In this document: positions 10,902-17,893 of the stretch, one piece after another | How positions within the stretch are numbered: position 1 is the first letter of the stretch | Layout: the number at the start of each line of letters is the position of its first letter | Origin: Candidatus Zipacnadum vermilionense | GTDB taxonomy: Bacteria > Armatimonadota > Zipacnadia > Zipacnadales > Zipacnadaceae | Reading direction: 5' to 3' | Length of the DNA: 64,000 bases | NCBI GenBank assembly: GCA_029821755.1 | Contig: JALGSV010000003.1 | Location: 1-64,000, forward strand | Made by a program: the position numbers and the translations under genes | Notes under the pieces: generated by a model | What the model was told of the DNA's origin: nothing | The model's input: the letters and a program-made list of their open reading frames with translations, nothing else | Database searches by the model: none

Positions 10902-11294
10902 TCAGTAGCACCAGCCGCCCCCGTAGGCTGGCGGAGGGCTATAGCTGCCACGGGAGCCGTAGCCGCCTCGATAGCCATAGCTGCCGTCGTCGTAGCCGGT
11001 GCGGTAGCCGTCGTTCCAGCCGTCGCCATACCCGCGGTTGTACCAGCGGCGCGGGCTTTCCCGGTAATAGCCGCCGCGGGGCGGGTTGTAGCTCGCATGC
11101 GGGCTGGGAGTGTATCGGCCCTGGTAGCGGGGGATGTCGTTGTCGAGGGCCCGGTACACCAGGTAGCCAACCGCTGCCCCGGCGATGATCGCTGCCGCGT
11201 CGTTGGCCTGGGCCGGGCGAGGGGCGACCACTCCCGTACCTAACGCAGCCACCAGAGCTACCAGCGTCAGCGTCGTCCAGACTCGATAGGTCAT
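10902..11294 (-). CDS. Small secreted Gly/Tyr/Arg-rich protein
   Basis: The protein has 130 residues; ATG 11294 has an ideal SD (AAGGAGGCGGCAAC). The signal peptide is about residues 1-30 (VALVAALGTGVVA, cleavage near AQA). A short hydrophobic patch (AAAIIAGAAVGYLVYRAL) follows. The rest is low complexity: Gly, Tyr, Arg, Ser and Asp with repeats such as GYGDGWNDGYRTGYDDGSYG, ending in WCY. It resembles structural or surface-coating proteins, but I recognise no family. Its promoter shares an operator with the 11388-11789 gene. Both genes lie divergent to marR, so they may respond to the same envelope or stress signal. Confidence 0.8.
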   Translation of the reverse strand: MTYRVWTTLTLVALVAALGTGVVAPRPAQANDAAAIIAGAAVGYLVYRALDNDIPRYQGRYTPSPHASYNPPRGGYYRESPRRWYNRGYGDGWNDGYRTGYDDGSYGYRGGYGSRGSYSPPPAYGGGWCY

Positions 11295-11320: not shown

Positions 11321-11348
11321 ATCTTACTACCATAGGTAGTACAGTCAG
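11321..11348 (-). promoter_or_regulatory. Promoter with 17-bp palindromic operator TACTA-N7-TAGTA
   Basis: Read on the minus strand, -35 CTGACT (11343-11348), 16-base spacer, -10 TAAGAT (11321-11326). The perfect palindrome TACTACCATAGGTAGTA (11325-11341) fills the spacer and touches the -10 box, the classic place for a repressor. The same TACTA-N7-TAGTA frame occurs at 11843-11859. Confidence 0.6.
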
Positions 11349-11387
11349 ACACAATTACCGGCCGGCTAGAAGCTTCGCCGCCCATGC

Positions 11388-11789
11388 TTACGGGCGGTTG
11401 CCGTACGGCCAGCCCAGATCGTTCGTCTGGAACGCGTAGGCCCCCGGCTCCTTATACCAATATTGCCCCGGAATCGGCGCTGGCGAAACGAACACGGTGG
11501 GGCCAGCCGGCATGAACGGAGCCCGGACCTTCCCACCGGACGCTGCGCCCGGACGAGTGCCGACCTGCAGCCTCAGCGGCAGCCGCTGCGTGCGATACCG
11601 GTAGTAGAAGGCCGGCTGAATCGTGTTCGGATCGACCTGGTAGACGAAGCCCACCGGGGGGAACTCCGTTGCCCTGGCCGAGAAGTACCCACGATAGTAC
11701 AGCGCCTCGTCCGCGTTAGCCGGGAGTGAAGCTGAGACCAGACATCCCACGATAGCCAACCCCAGTAGCCCGCCGAGTGCGGTCCGCAT
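11388..11789 (-). CDS. Small secreted Tyr/Pro-rich protein
   Basis: The protein has 133 residues from ATG 11789. A signal peptide (about 1-27, GLAIVGCLVSASLPANA) leads a mature domain with many tyrosines and prolines (EALYYRGYFSA, YYRYRTQRLPLRL, PIPGQYWYKEPGAYAFQ). There are no recognised motifs and no repeats as regular as in its neighbour. It probably sits in the periplasm or at the surface. It has the best promoter in the region (TTGACA, 17, TAAACT) with the same operator as the 10902-11294 gene, so the two are probably co-regulated although separately transcribed. The function is unknown. Confidence 0.8.
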   Translation of the reverse strand: MRTALGGLLGLAIVGCLVSASLPANADEALYYRGYFSARATEFPPVGFVYQVDPNTIQPAFYYRYRTQRLPLRLQVGTRPGAASGGKVRAPFMPAGPTVFVSPAPIPGQYWYKEPGAYAFQTNDLGWPYGNRP

Positions 11790-11805
11790 AATCGTGACTT
11801 CCTTT

Positions 11806-11859
11806 CCATACGTACTATGGTCGCTAGTTTAGCCGAACCATCTACTACTGTCAATAGTA
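11806..11859 (-). promoter_or_regulatory. Promoter with operator TACTA-N7-TAGTA and a second palindrome
   Basis: Minus-strand -35 TTGACA (11849-11854), 17-base spacer, -10 TAAACT (11826-11831). The palindrome TACTACTGTCAATAGTA (11843-11859) encloses the -35 box. Between the -10 box and the gene, CCATACGTACTATGG (11806-11820) is another inverted repeat near the expected transcription start. Both placements fit repression. Confidence 0.65.
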
Positions 11860-11932: not shown

Positions 11933-11961
11933 TTGAGGTCTAAACATTTTATATGTACAAT
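11933..11961 (+). promoter_or_regulatory. Promoter of marR, predicting a leaderless transcript
   Basis: TTGAGG (11933-11938), exactly 17 bases, TACAAT (11956-11961). The expected start of transcription (about 11967-11969) coincides with the marR ATG at 11969. The spacer contains the palindrome-like ACATTTTATATGT, a possible autoregulatory site. Confidence 0.55.
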
Positions 11962-11968
11962 AAGGTAG

Positions 11969-12472
11969 ATGAGAGCCCCCCAGGGAAAACCCCAAGCTTC
12001 AGGCAACAGGTCATGGCGAGCGATCGTCCATGCCAAGATGCGGATCTCCAGCGAACTCCGCCCCCTGCTGGCGGAGTACAACCTGACTGGACCGCAGTGG
12101 GCAGTGCTGCACACCCTGGACAAGGCCGCGCCTGAGGGCCTACGACTGAGCGAGTTGAGCCGGCGTCTGCGGGTTACTGAGGGGAACGTCACGGGCCTGG
12201 TAGACCGGCTGGAGGAGGGCGGCCTGATAGTGCGGATTCCGTACTCCGAAGACCGGCGCGTCATCATCGCCCGGTTGACCGCAGAAGGCAACGAGGTGTG
12301 CGGGCGGGTAGCGCCCCTGTTCCTGCAACGGCTTGAGGAGCTATTCTCGGCTTTGTCAGCGGAACGCCGCGTGGCCCTCACCGAGGCGCTTGAGCAACTG
12401 GCAAAGCCGCTTGAACCCGAGGAAGCGGCCTGCACCGAACCGGAGTCCCCGGCGGCCGGGGACGGGAAGTGA
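11969..12472 (+). CDS. MarR-family transcriptional regulator
   Basis: The protein has 167 residues. It has the winged helix-turn-helix of the MarR family: LTGPQWAVLHTLDKA (about 40-54), recognition helix VTEGNVTGLVDRLEEGGLI and the wing SEDRRVIIARLTAEG with the D-x-R motif. It is probably a dimeric repressor sensing a small molecule. ATG 11969 keeps the first helix (AIVHAKMRISSELRPLLAEY) intact, whereas the next ATG (12038) would cut into it. No SD precedes ATG 11969, and the promoter implies a leaderless mRNA. The gene leads a run with tolC, macA, macB and permease genes, so it probably controls that efflux set. It may also control the divergent Tyr-rich protein genes. Confidence 0.9.
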   Translation: MRAPQGKPQASGNRSWRAIVHAKMRISSELRPLLAEYNLTGPQWAVLHTLDKAAPEGLRLSELSRRLRVTEGNVTGLVDRLEEGGLIVRIPYSEDRRVIIARLTAEGNEVCGRVAPLFLQRLEELFSALSAERRVALTEALEQLAKPLEPEEAACTEPESPAAGDGK

Positions 12473-12485
12473 GGCAGACGAGAAC

Positions 12486-13883
12486 ATGAGTGTGGCGAGA
12501 ACCCTTCTCATGCTCACATTGGCGACACTGATGGCCGGGACGGCGCTGGCGGCAGACTCTCCCCCACCATCGACCGCGGCGGTCTCGACCAGCTCTGGCG
12601 AGGCAGGTGGTGGTCCAGGCCTGAAGCTACCAGCGGGGTGTGACTTGAACACGCCCCTGACCCTCCTAGCCTGTGCACGCCTCGCCTTAGCGCTAAACCC
12701 CGCCCTGGCTGTGGCGGATCGAAGGGTCGCCCAGGCTAACGCCTCCGCTACCCAGGCGCGGGCAGCGCTTCTGCCCAACCTATCTCTGGGGGCCGGCCTC
12801 TCGGCGAGTCGGGCCCTGCGCAGCGCCGGGACCTCCACCACAAGCACCACCTCCACGACCACGCGCAACACCACCCGCGACCTGTCGCTGCAACTCAATC
12901 AGACTTTCTACGAAAGCGGTTTGCCCCAGCAAATCGCCGCCGCCCAGGCCTCGGCCCGCGCCGCCCTGTGGGGATTCAACGACTCTCGGCGGACGCTGCT
13001 GCTGGACGTCGCCCAGAGCTACTTCAATGCCCTGGCAGCCATGGCCCTGGCCGACGTGACCCATCAAGCGGTGGAAGCTTCCACCCTGCATTTGGACGCC
13101 GCCAACGCACGTATTGAGGCCGGTACGGCCGCCAAGTCCGACCGCTATCCCTTCGAAGTAGAGTTGCAGCAGGCGCTGGTGCAGGCCATCTCGGCGGAAA
13201 ACCAGATTACCCTCAGCATGAACGCGCTGAAGGGGGTACTGGGACTACCCGCCACCGCGCCGTTGAAGCTGGCCGAGGCGCTGGGCCAGCCGAGCCCACC
13301 GAAGAAGGCAGAGGGTCTGTTGGCGCAAGCCATGGAGGAGCGACCGGACGTGGCGCAACGGCGCGAGCAGGTGGAGGCGGCGTTGCAGTTGGTGCGGGTT
13401 GCCCAGATTCGGCGTGGCCCAGTGGTCACCGCCAGCGGTTCTGATAACTACGGCTTCCACACCAAGGTTGACGGCAATGCCTGGCAGGTGCAATTGGGCG
13501 TCTCCTTGCCGATATTCGACGCCGGGGCGACGAAGGCGGCCGCCGACAGTGCTCGCGCGGCGCTGCAGATCGCCGAGCAGAACCTGCGCCAGACGCAACT
13601 GGCGGTTAGCGCTGAAGTGGAGAACAGTTTCGCCACGGCGCTGCAGGCCAACAAGCAGATCGATGTGACGCAAGCTGCCTTGACCGCCGCCCAGGTGAAC
13701 TCGCAGGCAGCCAGGGAAAGGTATAGGGCCGGACTGGGAACCGTCATCGATGTAACGGATGCCGAACTGAAGTTGCAGCAGGCCCAGACGGACCAGGTAC
13801 ACGCGCTCTACAGCTACAACATCGCTCTGGCGGCTCTCCGAGCTTCTGTAGGCGAGGCGGCGGTGGAGGGCGTAGAGCCTTGA
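12486..13883 (+). CDS. TolC-family outer membrane efflux protein
   Basis: The protein has 465 residues from ATG 12486, which lies 13 bases past the marR stop; a longer frame runs back into marR and is not used. After a signal peptide (about 1-24, LATLMAGTALA) there is a Ser/Thr/Pro-rich stretch. Two OEP repeats follow: the first from CARLALALNPALAVADRRVAQA to the middle, the second from ERPDVAQRREQVEAALQLVRVA to the end. Each has long helices and two strands (LSLQLNQTFYESG and WQVQLGVSLPIFDAG) that form part of the trimeric barrel. It should be the outer-membrane exit duct for the MacA/MacB-like pump encoded just downstream. A Thr/Ser-rich insertion (TSTTSTTSTTT) interrupts the first strand region. 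Confidence 0.93.
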   Translation: MSVARTLLMLTLATLMAGTALAADSPPPSTAAVSTSSGEAGGGPGLKLPAGCDLNTPLTLLACARLALALNPALAVADRRVAQANASATQARAALLPNLSLGAGLSASRALRSAGTSTTSTTSTTTRNTTRDLSLQLNQTFYESGLPQQIAAAQASARAALWGFNDSRRTLLLDVAQSYFNALAAMALADVTHQAVEASTLHLDAANARIEAGTAAKSDRYPFEVELQQALVQAISAENQITLSMNALKGVLGLPATAPLKLAEALGQPSPPKKAEGLLAQAMEERPDVAQRREQVEAALQLVRVAQIRRGPVVTASGSDNYGFHTKVDGNAWQVQLGVSLPIFDAGATKAAADSARAALQIAEQNLRQTQLAVSAEVENSFATALQANKQIDVTQAALTAAQVNSQAARERYRAGLGTVIDVTDAELKLQQAQTDQVHALYSYNIALAALRASVGEAAVEGVEP

Positions 13884-13925
13884 GAACACCCTACTCCAAG
13901 TGATCGGCGATAGAGGACAACAAAC

Positions 13926-15851
13926 ATGGCACAGGCCAGCAATAACCTGATCCAGTCTACCCGGAAGCGCCGCGTGTGGCCATGGCGCATCGTGATACCG
14001 GTGGTGACGTTGGTCGCCATTCTCGGAACCATCGCGATCGTGCGAGGGCGCAACGGCAATCAGGAGGGCGGCGGCGTCCGCACGGCTAAGGTCGAGCGCG
14101 GCGACCTGGTGCAGACGATCAGCAGCACCGGGGTCGTCGCCGCGGAGACCGGGGCGAACGTCAAGATCGGATCGCAGATCACCGGGCGCATCAAGCAGCT
14201 CCATGCCGACCTGGGCGACCGGGTGCAAGCAGGGCAGATTGTCGCCGTCCTGGATGCGCCGGACCTGGCCGCCAACCTGGAGTCGACTCGCCGCAGCCTG
14301 GCGCAGGCGCAGTCCCGCTACCAGCAACAGCTAGCCGGTGTCTCCATGCAGCACACGCAAGTTTCCACGGCGTTCGAACAAGCCACGGAGGGGATCCGCC
14401 GCGCCGAGGCGCAGCGAGATCAGGCCAAGGCGACGGTGGTTTCGGCCCAAGCGCGGCGGCGCTCGAGCCAGGCCGGTCTATCCGGCGCCCAGGCACGACA
14501 GAAGTCTGCTGAGTCCTCGCTGCGCTCTACCCAAGCCTCGGCGAAGTACCAGCCCGAGGTGACCTCTGCGAACGTGGCCCGGGCCAAAGCGGCGCTGAGC
14601 ACCGCCCAGTCCACCCAACGGCAGGTGGAGAGGAGCGCCGACCTGCAAATCGCCAGCACCACGGCCGCGCTCCGGCAGGCCGAGTCCCAGTTGACCTTGG
14701 CGACCGCCACTCTCGAGCGGCAAGAGAAGCTGCTGGCCAAGGGTTACCTGGCTGCGCAGGACGTCGATGCGGCACGTAACGCGAAAGAGGTCGCGCGCCA
14801 GCAAGTCGATTCGGCGCACTCGGCTCTGGCCCTGATCCAGGAGAAAGTGGCCGCTGACCGCCAGGCCGCCGTGGATCAAGTCGCCCAGGCCCAGGCAAGC
14901 CTGGCTGCAGCTCAGGCAGAGGGGTACCAAGACGTCGTGCGCACGGAAGCCGTCTCCTCCGCGGAGTCGGCTCTGGTCGAAGCCAAGTCCTCTGTGCTAC
15001 AAGCCCAGACCTCGGTGGAGAGCGCCACGGCCGATCTGAGTTCGGCGCGGGCCTCGCTGGCGGGTGCGGAGAGCGAGGTGCGCAACGCGCAGCAGGCTCA
15101 GAGGGCGGCTCTTGGCAACCTCACCCAGGACCAGCTCAAGCAGAAAGACGTGCAAACCGCTTACGAGGCCATGCGGCAGGCGAGCGCCCAGGTGCAGTAC
15201 CAGGAAGCCCAGTTTGACAAGAGCAACATCCGCACGCCGGTCTCGGGCACGGTCGTGAGCCTGACCCAGCAGCAGGGAGAGACGGTTGTGGCCGGACTGT
15301 CGGCACCCACCCTGATGGAGGTGGTCAACCTGGCCAAGCTGGAAGTGCATGCGTTTGTGGATGAGACGGACATCGCCCAAGTCCACTTGGGGCAGCCGGC
15401 GGAAGTCACGGTGGATGCCTTCCCGAAGCGCAGGCTCCCCGGAAAGGTCAGCAATATCTCGTCCGCCGCGACCATGCAAGACAACGTCGTAACCTACATG
15501 GTGACCATTGGGCTAGACAAGTACCCCGAGGGGATGCTGAAACCACAGATGACAGCCGATGTCATCCTCACCCTGTCTGAGGAGAATGACGTTCTCCTGG
15601 TGCCTAGTGAAGCGGTGAAGCAGAAGCAAGGCGTCAACCAGGTCGTGGTGCTCAAGGGCGGCAAGGGCGAGGTCCGCTCAGTGGCCATCGGCGCTACAGA
15701 CGGTACCTCCACCGAGATCAAAGAAGGCCTGCAAGAGGGTGACACGGTAGTGTTGGCGGGCTTCGCGGAATTGGGCCTACCGGACTTCGCGAGCGCCGCC
15801 CGACTCCCCAGGTTCTTCACCCGCGGCCCACTGGGCACGAGGAGCCGGTAG
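13926..15851 (+). CDS. HlyD/MacA-type periplasmic adaptor with very long coiled coil
   Basis: The protein has 641 residues, longer than E. coli MacA (about 370). An N-terminal membrane anchor ([20 protein letters not shown], about 18-37) is followed by a lipoyl-like half ([20 protein letters not shown]), a helical hairpin of some 330 residues rich in Ala/Gln/Ser (about 95-430), the second lipoyl half ([20 protein letters not shown]), a beta-barrel domain ([20 protein letters not shown]) and a membrane-proximal domain ([10 protein letters not shown], then [15 protein letters not shown]). It would link the inner-membrane ABC components to the TolC-like duct. The extended hairpin may span a wide periplasm or adapt to a short TolC. 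It sits 42 bases after tolC and 49 before macB. Confidence 0.93.
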
Positions 15852-15900
15852 CCGCCGACCCACCCGGCTGCCTGGGGCTGACAACGAGCGGCAACCAAAC

Positions 15901-16632
15901 ATGAACCTGATCCGGATGGAGAGCATAACCAAGGAGTACTCGCTGGGCGAGGTACTGGTGCGCGCCCTGCGCGGGGTCTCTGTTTCGGTGGAGCCGGGAG
16001 AGTTCGTGGCCATTATGGGCCCCTCGGGCTCGGGCAAGAGCACCCTCATGCACATCATGGGGTGCCTGGACACGCCCACCTCCGGATTTTACCAACTGGC
16101 CGGCGTGGAAGTCTCCTCGATGAATGACACCGAGCTGGCGCAGGTGCGCAATAGTCAGATCGGCTTCGTCTTCCAGCAGTACAACCTTCTCCCGCGCACA
16201 ACCGCGTTGGAGAATGTAGAGTTGCCGTTGCAGTACGCGGGAGCTACGGATCATCGGCGCGATCGCGCGCTGGCAGCGCTGGAGCGAGTCGGCCTGGGCG
16301 ACCGCTTGGGCCATTTTCCCAGCCAACTGTCGGGAGGGCAGCAGCAACGCGTAGCGGTTGCACGGGCGCTGGTCACTGACCCACCGATCATCATGGGCGA
16401 CGAGCCCACCGGCAACTTGGCCAGCCGCCAGGGCGAGGAGATCATGGCCATCCTCCAGGACCTGAACGATTCGGGGATCACCGTGGTGATGGTCACTCAC
16501 GAACACGACATCGCGATGCACGCCAAGCGCGTCGTGACCGTCCGGGACGGACTGATAGTGGAGGATCACCAGGTGGAGGATCAAACGCGGGCCACGGAGA
16601 TCCTGGCGGGAATGCCGGAGGAAGCGCCGTAA
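15901..16632 (+). CDS. MacB-type ABC transporter ATPase
   Basis: The protein has 243 residues. It is the nucleotide-binding subunit of a MacB/LolD-like exporter. Walker [10 protein letters not shown] (40-48), Q-loop region [11 protein letters not shown], signature [15 protein letters not shown], Walker [14 protein letters not shown] (Met-Gly where most relatives have Leu-Ala) and the switch histidine in [13 protein letters not shown] are all present. It is a separate chain, not fused to the permease as in E. coli MacB. The closeness of tolC, macA and permease genes indicates a tripartite efflux pump for a peptide, lipid or antibiotic. The permease GTG start lies 22 bases beyond its stop. Confidence 0.95.
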
Positions 16633-16654
16633 GTGGCAGGAGCGCGAGAAAAAC

Positions 16655-17893
16655 GTGAACATCTGGGAATGCATTAAGACAGCACTGCGAGCGCTGCGCA
16701 GCAACAAGATGCGCACCGTCCTAACGATGCTGGGCATCGTCATCGGAGTGGGGGCGGTTATCGCCATGGTCGGCATCGGGCAGGGAGCCGCCCAGCAAAT
16801 CCGCGACCAGTTCGCATCGATGGGCACCAATCTGCTGACCGTATCCCGAGGCAACCGGGCGCGACGCTTTGGTGGCCCCGCACCCACCTCCACGCAGGCC
16901 AACTCGCTAGTCCCGGCCGACGCCGAAGCGATACTGCGCAAGTTCCCCGATACCGTAGCGGCGGTGGCGCAGGTGTGCCGGGGAAGCGCAGTGTGCAAAC
17001 TGGGAAACAGGTCCTGGTCAACGCAGGTGCAAGGGGTGTCCCCGGACTATACCATGGTAGCCAAGTGGGAGGTGGCGGAGGGCAGGTTCATCAACGACCA
17101 GGACAACACCGGCCGCACGCGGGTGGCCGTGGTCGGTCGCAGCCTGATCGAAAACTTGACCGGCGATCGGAACGCCGACGTCATTGGGCAAGACATGCTG
17201 ATCAACCGATCCCGATTTCACATCATCGGGATACTCAAGGAGAAGGGCTCCGGTGCGTTTGGTCAGGACCAAGATATCGTGGCCATGATCCCAGTGAACA
17301 CAGCCATGCGCCGGGTCTTCAACCGCACCTCGCTGAATGAAATTAACGTCAGTTGTCGCACCGAACAGGACATGCCCATGGCAATTGAGCAGATCACCAC
17401 ATTCATGCGCGAGGAGCACAAGCTCCGCCCGCCCTTCCCCGACAACGACGACTTCACGGTGCGCAGCCAGTCGCAGATTCTGGAGGCCAGCGCGCAGAGC
17501 TCACAGACCATGACCTCGCTGCTGGGGGGTATTGCACTGGTGTCGCTGCTGGTCGGCGGCATTGGCATCATGAACATCATGCTGGTGTCGGTCACCGAAC
17601 GGACGCGCGAGATTGGTATCCGCAAGGCGGTCGGCGCCACCCGGCATGACATCCTGATGCAGTTCCTCATCGAGGCGATGGTGATCTCGCTGCTGGGGGG
17701 GATTCTCGGGGTATTGATCGGGGTGGGTATCGGCCAACTCGCGGCGAGCGTGTTGAACCTGGGCACCGTCATCCAGCCCTCGGTGGTAATAATAGCGGTA
17801 CTGGTCTCCGGCGGCATCGGGGTCTTCTTCGGTATCTACCCGGCCCGACAGGCCGCGATGCTCAACCCGATTGACGCTCTGCGATTCGAGTAG
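16655..17893 (+). CDS. MacB-type ABC permease (MacB_PCD plus FtsX)
   Basis: The protein has 412 residues from GTG 16655. Topology is as in MacB: a membrane helix near 20-43 (VLTMLGIVIGVGAVIAMVGI), a large periplasmic domain (about 50-275, MacB_PCD, starting IRDQFASMGTNLLTV) and three C-terminal helices of the FtsX domain. GGIALVSLLVGGIGIMNIML, the coupling segment TERTREIGIRKAVGATRHDI and the end PARQAAMLNPIDALRFE are characteristic. It partners the ATPase at 15901 and the adaptor at 13926. It is the last gene of the marR run; a bidirectional hairpin follows at 17929. Confidence 0.95.
   Translation: MNIWECIKTALRALRSNKMRTVLTMLGIVIGVGAVIAMVGIGQGAAQQIRDQFASMGTNLLTVSRGNRARRFGGPAPTSTQANSLVPADAEAILRKFPDTVAAVAQVCRGSAVCKLGNRSWSTQVQGVSPDYTMVAKWEVAEGRFINDQDNTGRTRVAVVGRSLIENLTGDRNADVIGQDMLINRSRFHIIGILKEKGSGAFGQDQDIVAMIPVNTAMRRVFNRTSLNEINVSCRTEQDMPMAIEQITTFMREEHKLRPPFPDNDDFTVRSQSQILEASAQSSQTMTSLLGGIALVSLLVGGIGIMNIMLVSVTERTREIGIRKAVGATRHDILMQFLIEAMVISLLGGILGVLIGVGIGQLAASVLNLGTVIQPSVVIIAVLVSGGIGVFFGIYPARQAAMLNPIDALRFE

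Follow-up and report, generated by a model that had tools for sequence, protein, structure and literature searches.

Two adjacent genes for small secreted proteins of Candidatus Zipacnadum vermilionense carry copies of one 17-bp dyad, TACTA-N7-TAGTA, at their promoters, which raises the question of whether these copies are operators and, if so, which regulator reads them. Our window, i.e., the whole stretch of 64,000 nucleotides analyzed here, encodes both proteins on the minus strand: gene A (10902..11294, 130 aa) has a signal peptide, a glycine-zipper-like stretch and a Tyr/Gly-rich tail, and gene B (11388..11789, 133 aa) has a signal peptide and belongs to a Tyr-rich YYRGYF...PGQYWY family. 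The original prediction had proposed an operator common to the two promoters, bound either by the product of a neighboring MarR gene or by a BlaI/MecI-type repressor encoded elsewhere. The common operator is supported by the results below, and both 17-mers were found exactly where they had been placed.

The operator of gene A, an exact match (TACTACCTATGGTAGTA on the minus strand, 11325..11341), is located 30 bp 5' of the gene A start codon; this start has AGGAGG as its ribosome site. Its supposed position in a promoter spacer agrees with hexamers read by eye, CTGACT at 11348-11343 and, after 16 nt, TAAGAT at 11326-11321; this candidate weak promoter CTGACT-16-TAAGAT (11321..11348, minus strand) is however absent from the output of the promoter scan, as its hexamers fall below the scan threshold. 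The main operator of gene B, again exact (TACTATTGACAGTAGTA on the minus strand, 11843..11859), contains the -35 box TTGACA and is conserved in 16 aligned promoters. It covers, as predicted, the -35 box of a sigma-70-like minus-strand promoter, TTGACA-17-TAAACT (11826..11854), which the scan reports with 10 of 12 consensus bases. A third site that had been missed before, TACTATGGTCGCTAGTT at 11813..11829 (AACTAGCGACCATAGTA on the minus strand), shows one mismatch and overlaps the -10 box TAAACT. Gene B thus has two predicted operators, which span its promoter at a centre-to-centre distance of 30 bp. Paired sites recur in relatives, 30 bp apart in G001, G002, G021, and G027, and 31 bp apart in G026.

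The genome (4,389,187 bases in 115 contigs, 95.4% complete) contains one PF03965 (Penicillinase_R) gene, a blaI located on contig C38 (G000:C38, ORF about 172923-173393), whose product matches the family with an E-value of 7.7e-26 and 91.1 bits. Among solved structures its best match is 2g9w, which we take to be M. tuberculosis BlaI, Rv1846c. The blaI promoter, TTGACA-17-TATCAT, overlaps TACTATCATATGTAGTT, a copy of the dyad with one mismatch. We scanned 30 out of 45 listed blaI loci, comprising our own and those of relatives, and found that in 24 of them the 300 bp upstream include an exact N7 site. With its mismatch, the own locus is not among these 24; the others lacking an exact site are L033, L040, L052, L055, and L057, whose upstream sequence is no longer than 101 bp. 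Not one of 240 control windows contains an N7 site, even at one mismatch. Exact matches with spacings N3, N5, N6, N8, N9, and N11 are likewise absent from all 30 loci, and those with N4 (7/30) and N10 (1/30) derive from overlapping TACTACTA registers. A second collection, restricted to class loci whose upstream sequence reaches 150 bp or more, reveals an exact site at 22 of 23 blaI genes and a one-mismatch site at the remaining one; the two collections overlap in part and are therefore not independent. In named records, the relatives of this BlaI belong to MAGs of Candidatus Zipacnadia, WS1 or Armatimonadetes. The class Zipacnadia was named in PMC10290634, in the accessible portion of which the word BlaI is absent.

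Among 46 class genomes, those 34 that show a strong BlaI match have more N7 sites (0-11 each) than the 12 without one (0, 0, 0, 0, 0, 0, 1, 1, 1, 2, 2, and 5; Mann-Whitney P 1.2e-5), where G005, G008, and G009, with weak matches of E 1e-5 to 1e-3, are counted as lacking BlaI even though G008 lies above the family cut-off. G001 has five sites yet no BlaI match in an assembly that is 79% complete and split into 410 contigs. Conversely, three genomes (G006, G042, and G045) combine a strong PF03965 match with zero N7 sites. The BlaI of G006 is only 25% identical to the C38 protein. Beyond the class, 54 blaI loci, mostly from Chloroflexota, show the exact site in five cases and a site within one mismatch in 18, compared to eight for N4 and 14 for N10 within one mismatch. 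Variant dyads were seen as well: in several Chloroflexaceae-type loci among L218-L247, TACGA-N7-TAGTA precedes the BlaI match by approximately 210-270 bp, and at L055 (G006:C6) TACGA-N7-TCGTA lies 85 bp before the domain match of the distant G006 BlaI, which would suit a paralogue of other operator specificity in genus g2.

The sole BlaI gene and its orthologues carry the operator at their own promoter, which speaks for the second of the two regulators originally suggested. We consider it highly probable that the TACTA-N7-TAGTA sites are operators of the C38 BlaI/MecI repressor, and that the whole BlaI/M56 derepression scheme described below holds. Association with blaI is no proof that BlaI itself binds the sites, and a different repressor might co-regulate blaI together with the secreted genes, BlaI being merely one of its targets. 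Against this very improbable arrangement stand the site-poor genomes lacking a strong BlaI match, the presence of the site at blaI loci outside the class, and the frequent regulation of their own operon by BlaI proteins, as stated in excerpts of PMC8457756.

The other suggested regulator is encoded next to gene B, in divergent orientation (11969..12472, plus strand; Pfam MarR, start uncertain). Dyads in divergent promoters are frequent targets of MarR proteins, and this one could bind the sites and control genes A and B in addition to its own efflux operon. Yet among 23 loci around gene B relatives, some of them short, tblastn identified MarR in a single one, our own, while the operator persists. 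The sites also occur at loci far away and, across the order, at blaI promoters, and the promoter-like TTGAGG-17-TACAAT found by the scan at 11933-11961 is 74 bp away from the nearest site and contains no copy. Because of this missing linkage in other genomes, MarR was rejected as the regulator; we regard its involvement as most unlikely, and the MarR gene is probably unrelated to the operators. From 11969 to 17893, genes for MarR, OEP (TolC-type), HlyD-type, ABC ATPase, and permease proteins stand in a row, the first three identified by Pfam and the rest as ORFs, in what looks like a MarR-controlled MacAB-TolC efflux operon.

A protein-level search identified gene B relatives in 14 of 41 genomes, our own included, and TACTATTGACARTAGTA is present at nine of the 14. 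The five genomes in which it is missing (G003, G005, G006, G009, and G011, the G005 match comprising only 35 residues) belong to genera g2 and g4, where no orthologous BlaI was seen. Free variation of the sites in relatives, which would speak against an operator, is refuted by the upstream regions: 16 gene B promoters, all picked for an exact site and seven of them added via site and neighboring protein, keep TACTATTGACA[G/A]TAGTA with 16 of 17 columns invariant and free flanks. Across these promoters the site averages 1.94 bits per column, compared to 0.22 upstream and 0.33-0.36 downstream, and a TATAAT-like box follows TTGACA after about 17 nt.

How rare the dyad is depends on the control. 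Allowing one mismatch, the window contains three matches against 0.07 expected from shuffles. In the whole genome, TACTA-N3..12-TAGTA matches six times, five times with N7 and once with N10, such that the nine spacings other than N7 contribute one match in 4.39 Mb. The reversed word is commoner in its gapped form (27 versus six matches) and about equally frequent for N7 alone (four versus five exact matches). Word composition cannot decide alone, and shuffles and the reversed pattern were thus set aside as sole tests in favor of spacing and out-of-class controls. At least five of six matches at one given spacing out of ten have a probability of 5.5e-5. Of 82 genomes from other classes of the phylum, 13 contain N7 sites, 17 in total (mean 0.21 per genome over all 82), so that five in one genome are unexpected (Poisson P 2.7e-6 for at least five). 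The genome-wide scan thereby yields five exact sites of a motif that is rare outside the class, and the earlier judgement that two chance copies are unlikely is borne out by both controls. One-mismatch N7 sites are a different matter: there are 26 in our genome compared to 118 for the reversed control, and many of them are noise. The 41 genomes of the own family and order contain 282 sites over all spacings 4-10, of which 196 are N7. Chance, with A+T-rich words falling into A+T-rich promoters and N7 favored by common TACTAT-like -10 boxes, could draw on the overlap of several sites with -10-like TACTAT or TATACT, the N4 and N10 registers and the commoner reversed word, but is largely refuted and extremely improbable given the empty control windows, the low out-of-class average and the invariant columns at gene B, even though those rows were chosen for having the site. 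The two sites originally found in the window are real.

Three further sites in the genome indicate the nature of the putative regulon. Each overlaps a promoter read by eye: TTGACA-18-TACTAT upstream of a 197-aa lipoprotein gene on C71, TTGCCT-17-TATACT upstream of a 176-aa lipoprotein gene on C114, and TTGACG-17-TATACT upstream of a gene on C1 for a secreted protein with InlB-type repeats (Pfam Flg_new_2). When the dyad is extended by its flanks to ATCTACTA-N7-TAGTAGAT, C71 and C114 are exact copies, C1 has one mismatch and gene B two. A one-mismatch site at C113:5200 is followed by another signal-bearing protein. Among the 16 one-mismatch loci of our genome listed in the signal-start survey, a ribosome site and a signal-like start follow only this site and the second gene B operator.

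The survey covers 130 distinct sites in the examined loci, which are mainly neighborhoods of sites among the matches listed; 24 are linked to blaI and 106 are not. A ribosome site with a signal-like start within 120 bp was found at 73 of the 106 and at 24 of 1300 random positions, taking the better of two directions per site and applying the same rule to the control; the other 33 have no signal-like start by this rule. Recurring target families are gene A, gene B, the C114-type lipoprotein, and the C71-type lipoprotein, the last also in G001 and G002. A lipoprotein with an M48 metalloprotease domain and TPR repeats recurs under the operator in three relatives (L073, L074, and L163; Pfam on L074), secreted TPR proteins in L156, L162, and L167 (Pfam on L156), and others have no Pfam match. 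Neither a beta-lactamase nor PBP2a is among the ten target proteins scanned with Pfam, namely genes A and B, C71, C114, C1, and five proteins of relatives, including one related to gene B. In our reading, the BlaI/M56 switch has been re-used in Armatimonadota (Zipacnadia) for a probably β-lactam-independent regulon of exported proteins.

Taking the sites, their promoter positions and conservation, the link to blaI and the domain make-up as observed, we infer binding, repression, proteolysis, signal, and product functions; repression at overlapping promoters and release through M56 proteolysis are deduced from the anatomy and the known BlaI/BlaR1 pathway (PMC3305447 and PMC7593790, in excerpts). 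A BlaI dimer would bind the 17-bp dyad where it overlaps a promoter and block RNA polymerase at the blaI-M56 genes, genes A and B, and a small number of additional genes for exported proteins, i.e., the C71 and C114 lipoproteins, the C1 secreted repeat protein and probably C113. A signal at the cell surface would activate the M56 protease, BlaI would be cut, and the whole set would be derepressed together.

The presumed partner, a BlaR1-like M56 protease, is encoded just downstream of the C38 blaI (L018:1884-2876), and an ORF with HExxH directly follows blaI in 23 of 25 class loci. Our own protein (331 aa) scores 31.7 bits against Pfam M56, the cut-off being 31. Its structural model (mean pLDDT 90) aligns with residues 1-293 of S. 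aureus BlaR1 over 224 positions at 10% identity (Z 12.6, rmsd 3.7), a region that, judging by the model, corresponds to the membrane part and protease of BlaR1. A Foldseek search ranked BlaR1 first as well, with an E-value of only 3e-3, the Z-score stemming from the second structural comparison. All 22 complete class proteins, and likewise 12 from other groups, keep HExxH and the third ligand, E227, unchanged. Many M56 proteins have no sensor domain. In the class proteins the C-terminal penicillin-sensor domain is missing, as the own protein ends at 331 aa and complete class proteins comprise 309-390 aa; in BlaR1 the sensor spans residues 332-585, according to the available part of PMC9834060.

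What the class proteins possess instead may lie in three other residues. C84, in a ...PHLC... motif, and C320, in a short C-terminal tail with DSLxC, are both Cys in 20 of 22 class M56 proteins and both Ser in the related L191 and L192, and H82 is present without exception; the three residues do not occur together in any of the 12 M56 proteins from other groups. By analogy, C84 would be placed in an extracellular loop corresponding to BlaR1 EL1. Both double Cys losses may go back to a single event on the tree, and the class-specific cysteine pair is thus a lead only. It is conceivable, if rather doubtful, that this M56 protein is a surface sensor of a new type, in which a C84/C320 disulfide or metal site gates the protease such that redox or metal stress of the envelope frees the regulon.

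BlaI/BlaR1 pairs have mainly been described as switches of antibiotic resistance, but BlaI-M56 pairs whose purpose is unknown occur in many bacterial genomes. Operator and BlaI/M56 pair are already of a known kind: BlaI-BlaR1 and MecI-MecR1 of S. aureus and B. licheniformis likewise consist of a PF03965 repressor and an adjacent BlaR1-fold M56 protease and are autoregulated, and several operators lie over promoters (OP1-OP3 in B. licheniformis, excerpt of PMC3305447), as is the case here. Unlike BlaR1/MecR1, the protease has no penicillin-sensor domain, and the predicted targets sampled so far are exported proteins, not beta-lactamase or PBP2a. Staphylococcal BlaI/MecI operators contain TACA/TGTA (PMC7253601, in part), so that their half-site differs from the TACTA half-sites seven bases apart described here. 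A parallel in layout is Clostridium thermocellum BlaI_0696, which, in the accessible text of PMC8457756, is autoregulated and binds inverted GTCTAT repeats five nucleotides apart, a 17-bp dyad GTCTAT-N5-ATAGAC that occurs in pairs upstream of its targets. Its outer half-site bases differ, and its targets are three operons only, which the authors tied to the beta-lactam response. The M. tuberculosis BlaI has targets including Rv1303, co-transcribed with the ATP synthase operon (PMC12565901, in part), and M. tuberculosis BlaR is not mentioned in PMC8265638. A BlaI regulon of Armatimonadota was not found in the literature within scope, most subscription journals lying outside it. The variant is set apart by a sensorless M56 protein, altered half-sites and a putative exported-protein regulon conserved in an Armatimonadota order. 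Here the BlaI-M56 pair seems to be wired to exported proteins and lipoproteins; in some relatives these include an M48 protease. Since the operator is readable and has been kept throughout an order of uncultured bacteria, the predicted targets can be listed straight from the sequence, and the control and sensing functions of sensorless BlaI-M56 systems become testable; protein families that otherwise have no annotation also gain a regulatory handle.

Genes A and B exemplify the latter, with no Pfam match up to an E-value of 0.1. That they are related, as originally assumed, is doubtful; their sequences look like different families placed side by side. In G001, G004, G007, G019, G024, G028, G031, and G033, gene B is followed by a relative of gene A that has an operator of its own; in G001 and G033 this relative is truncated by the contig or locus end. 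The predicted structure of gene B is of low confidence (mean pLDDT 65) and its fold search gave no significant match, so that no function can be drawn from the fold; the gene B alignment was too variable for a profile scan of the genome collection. A role of both genes in envelope homeostasis is a guess. Most gene B relatives outside the genus of the window carry a zinc-ribbon-like CxxC...CxxC, which the members within this genus do not have.
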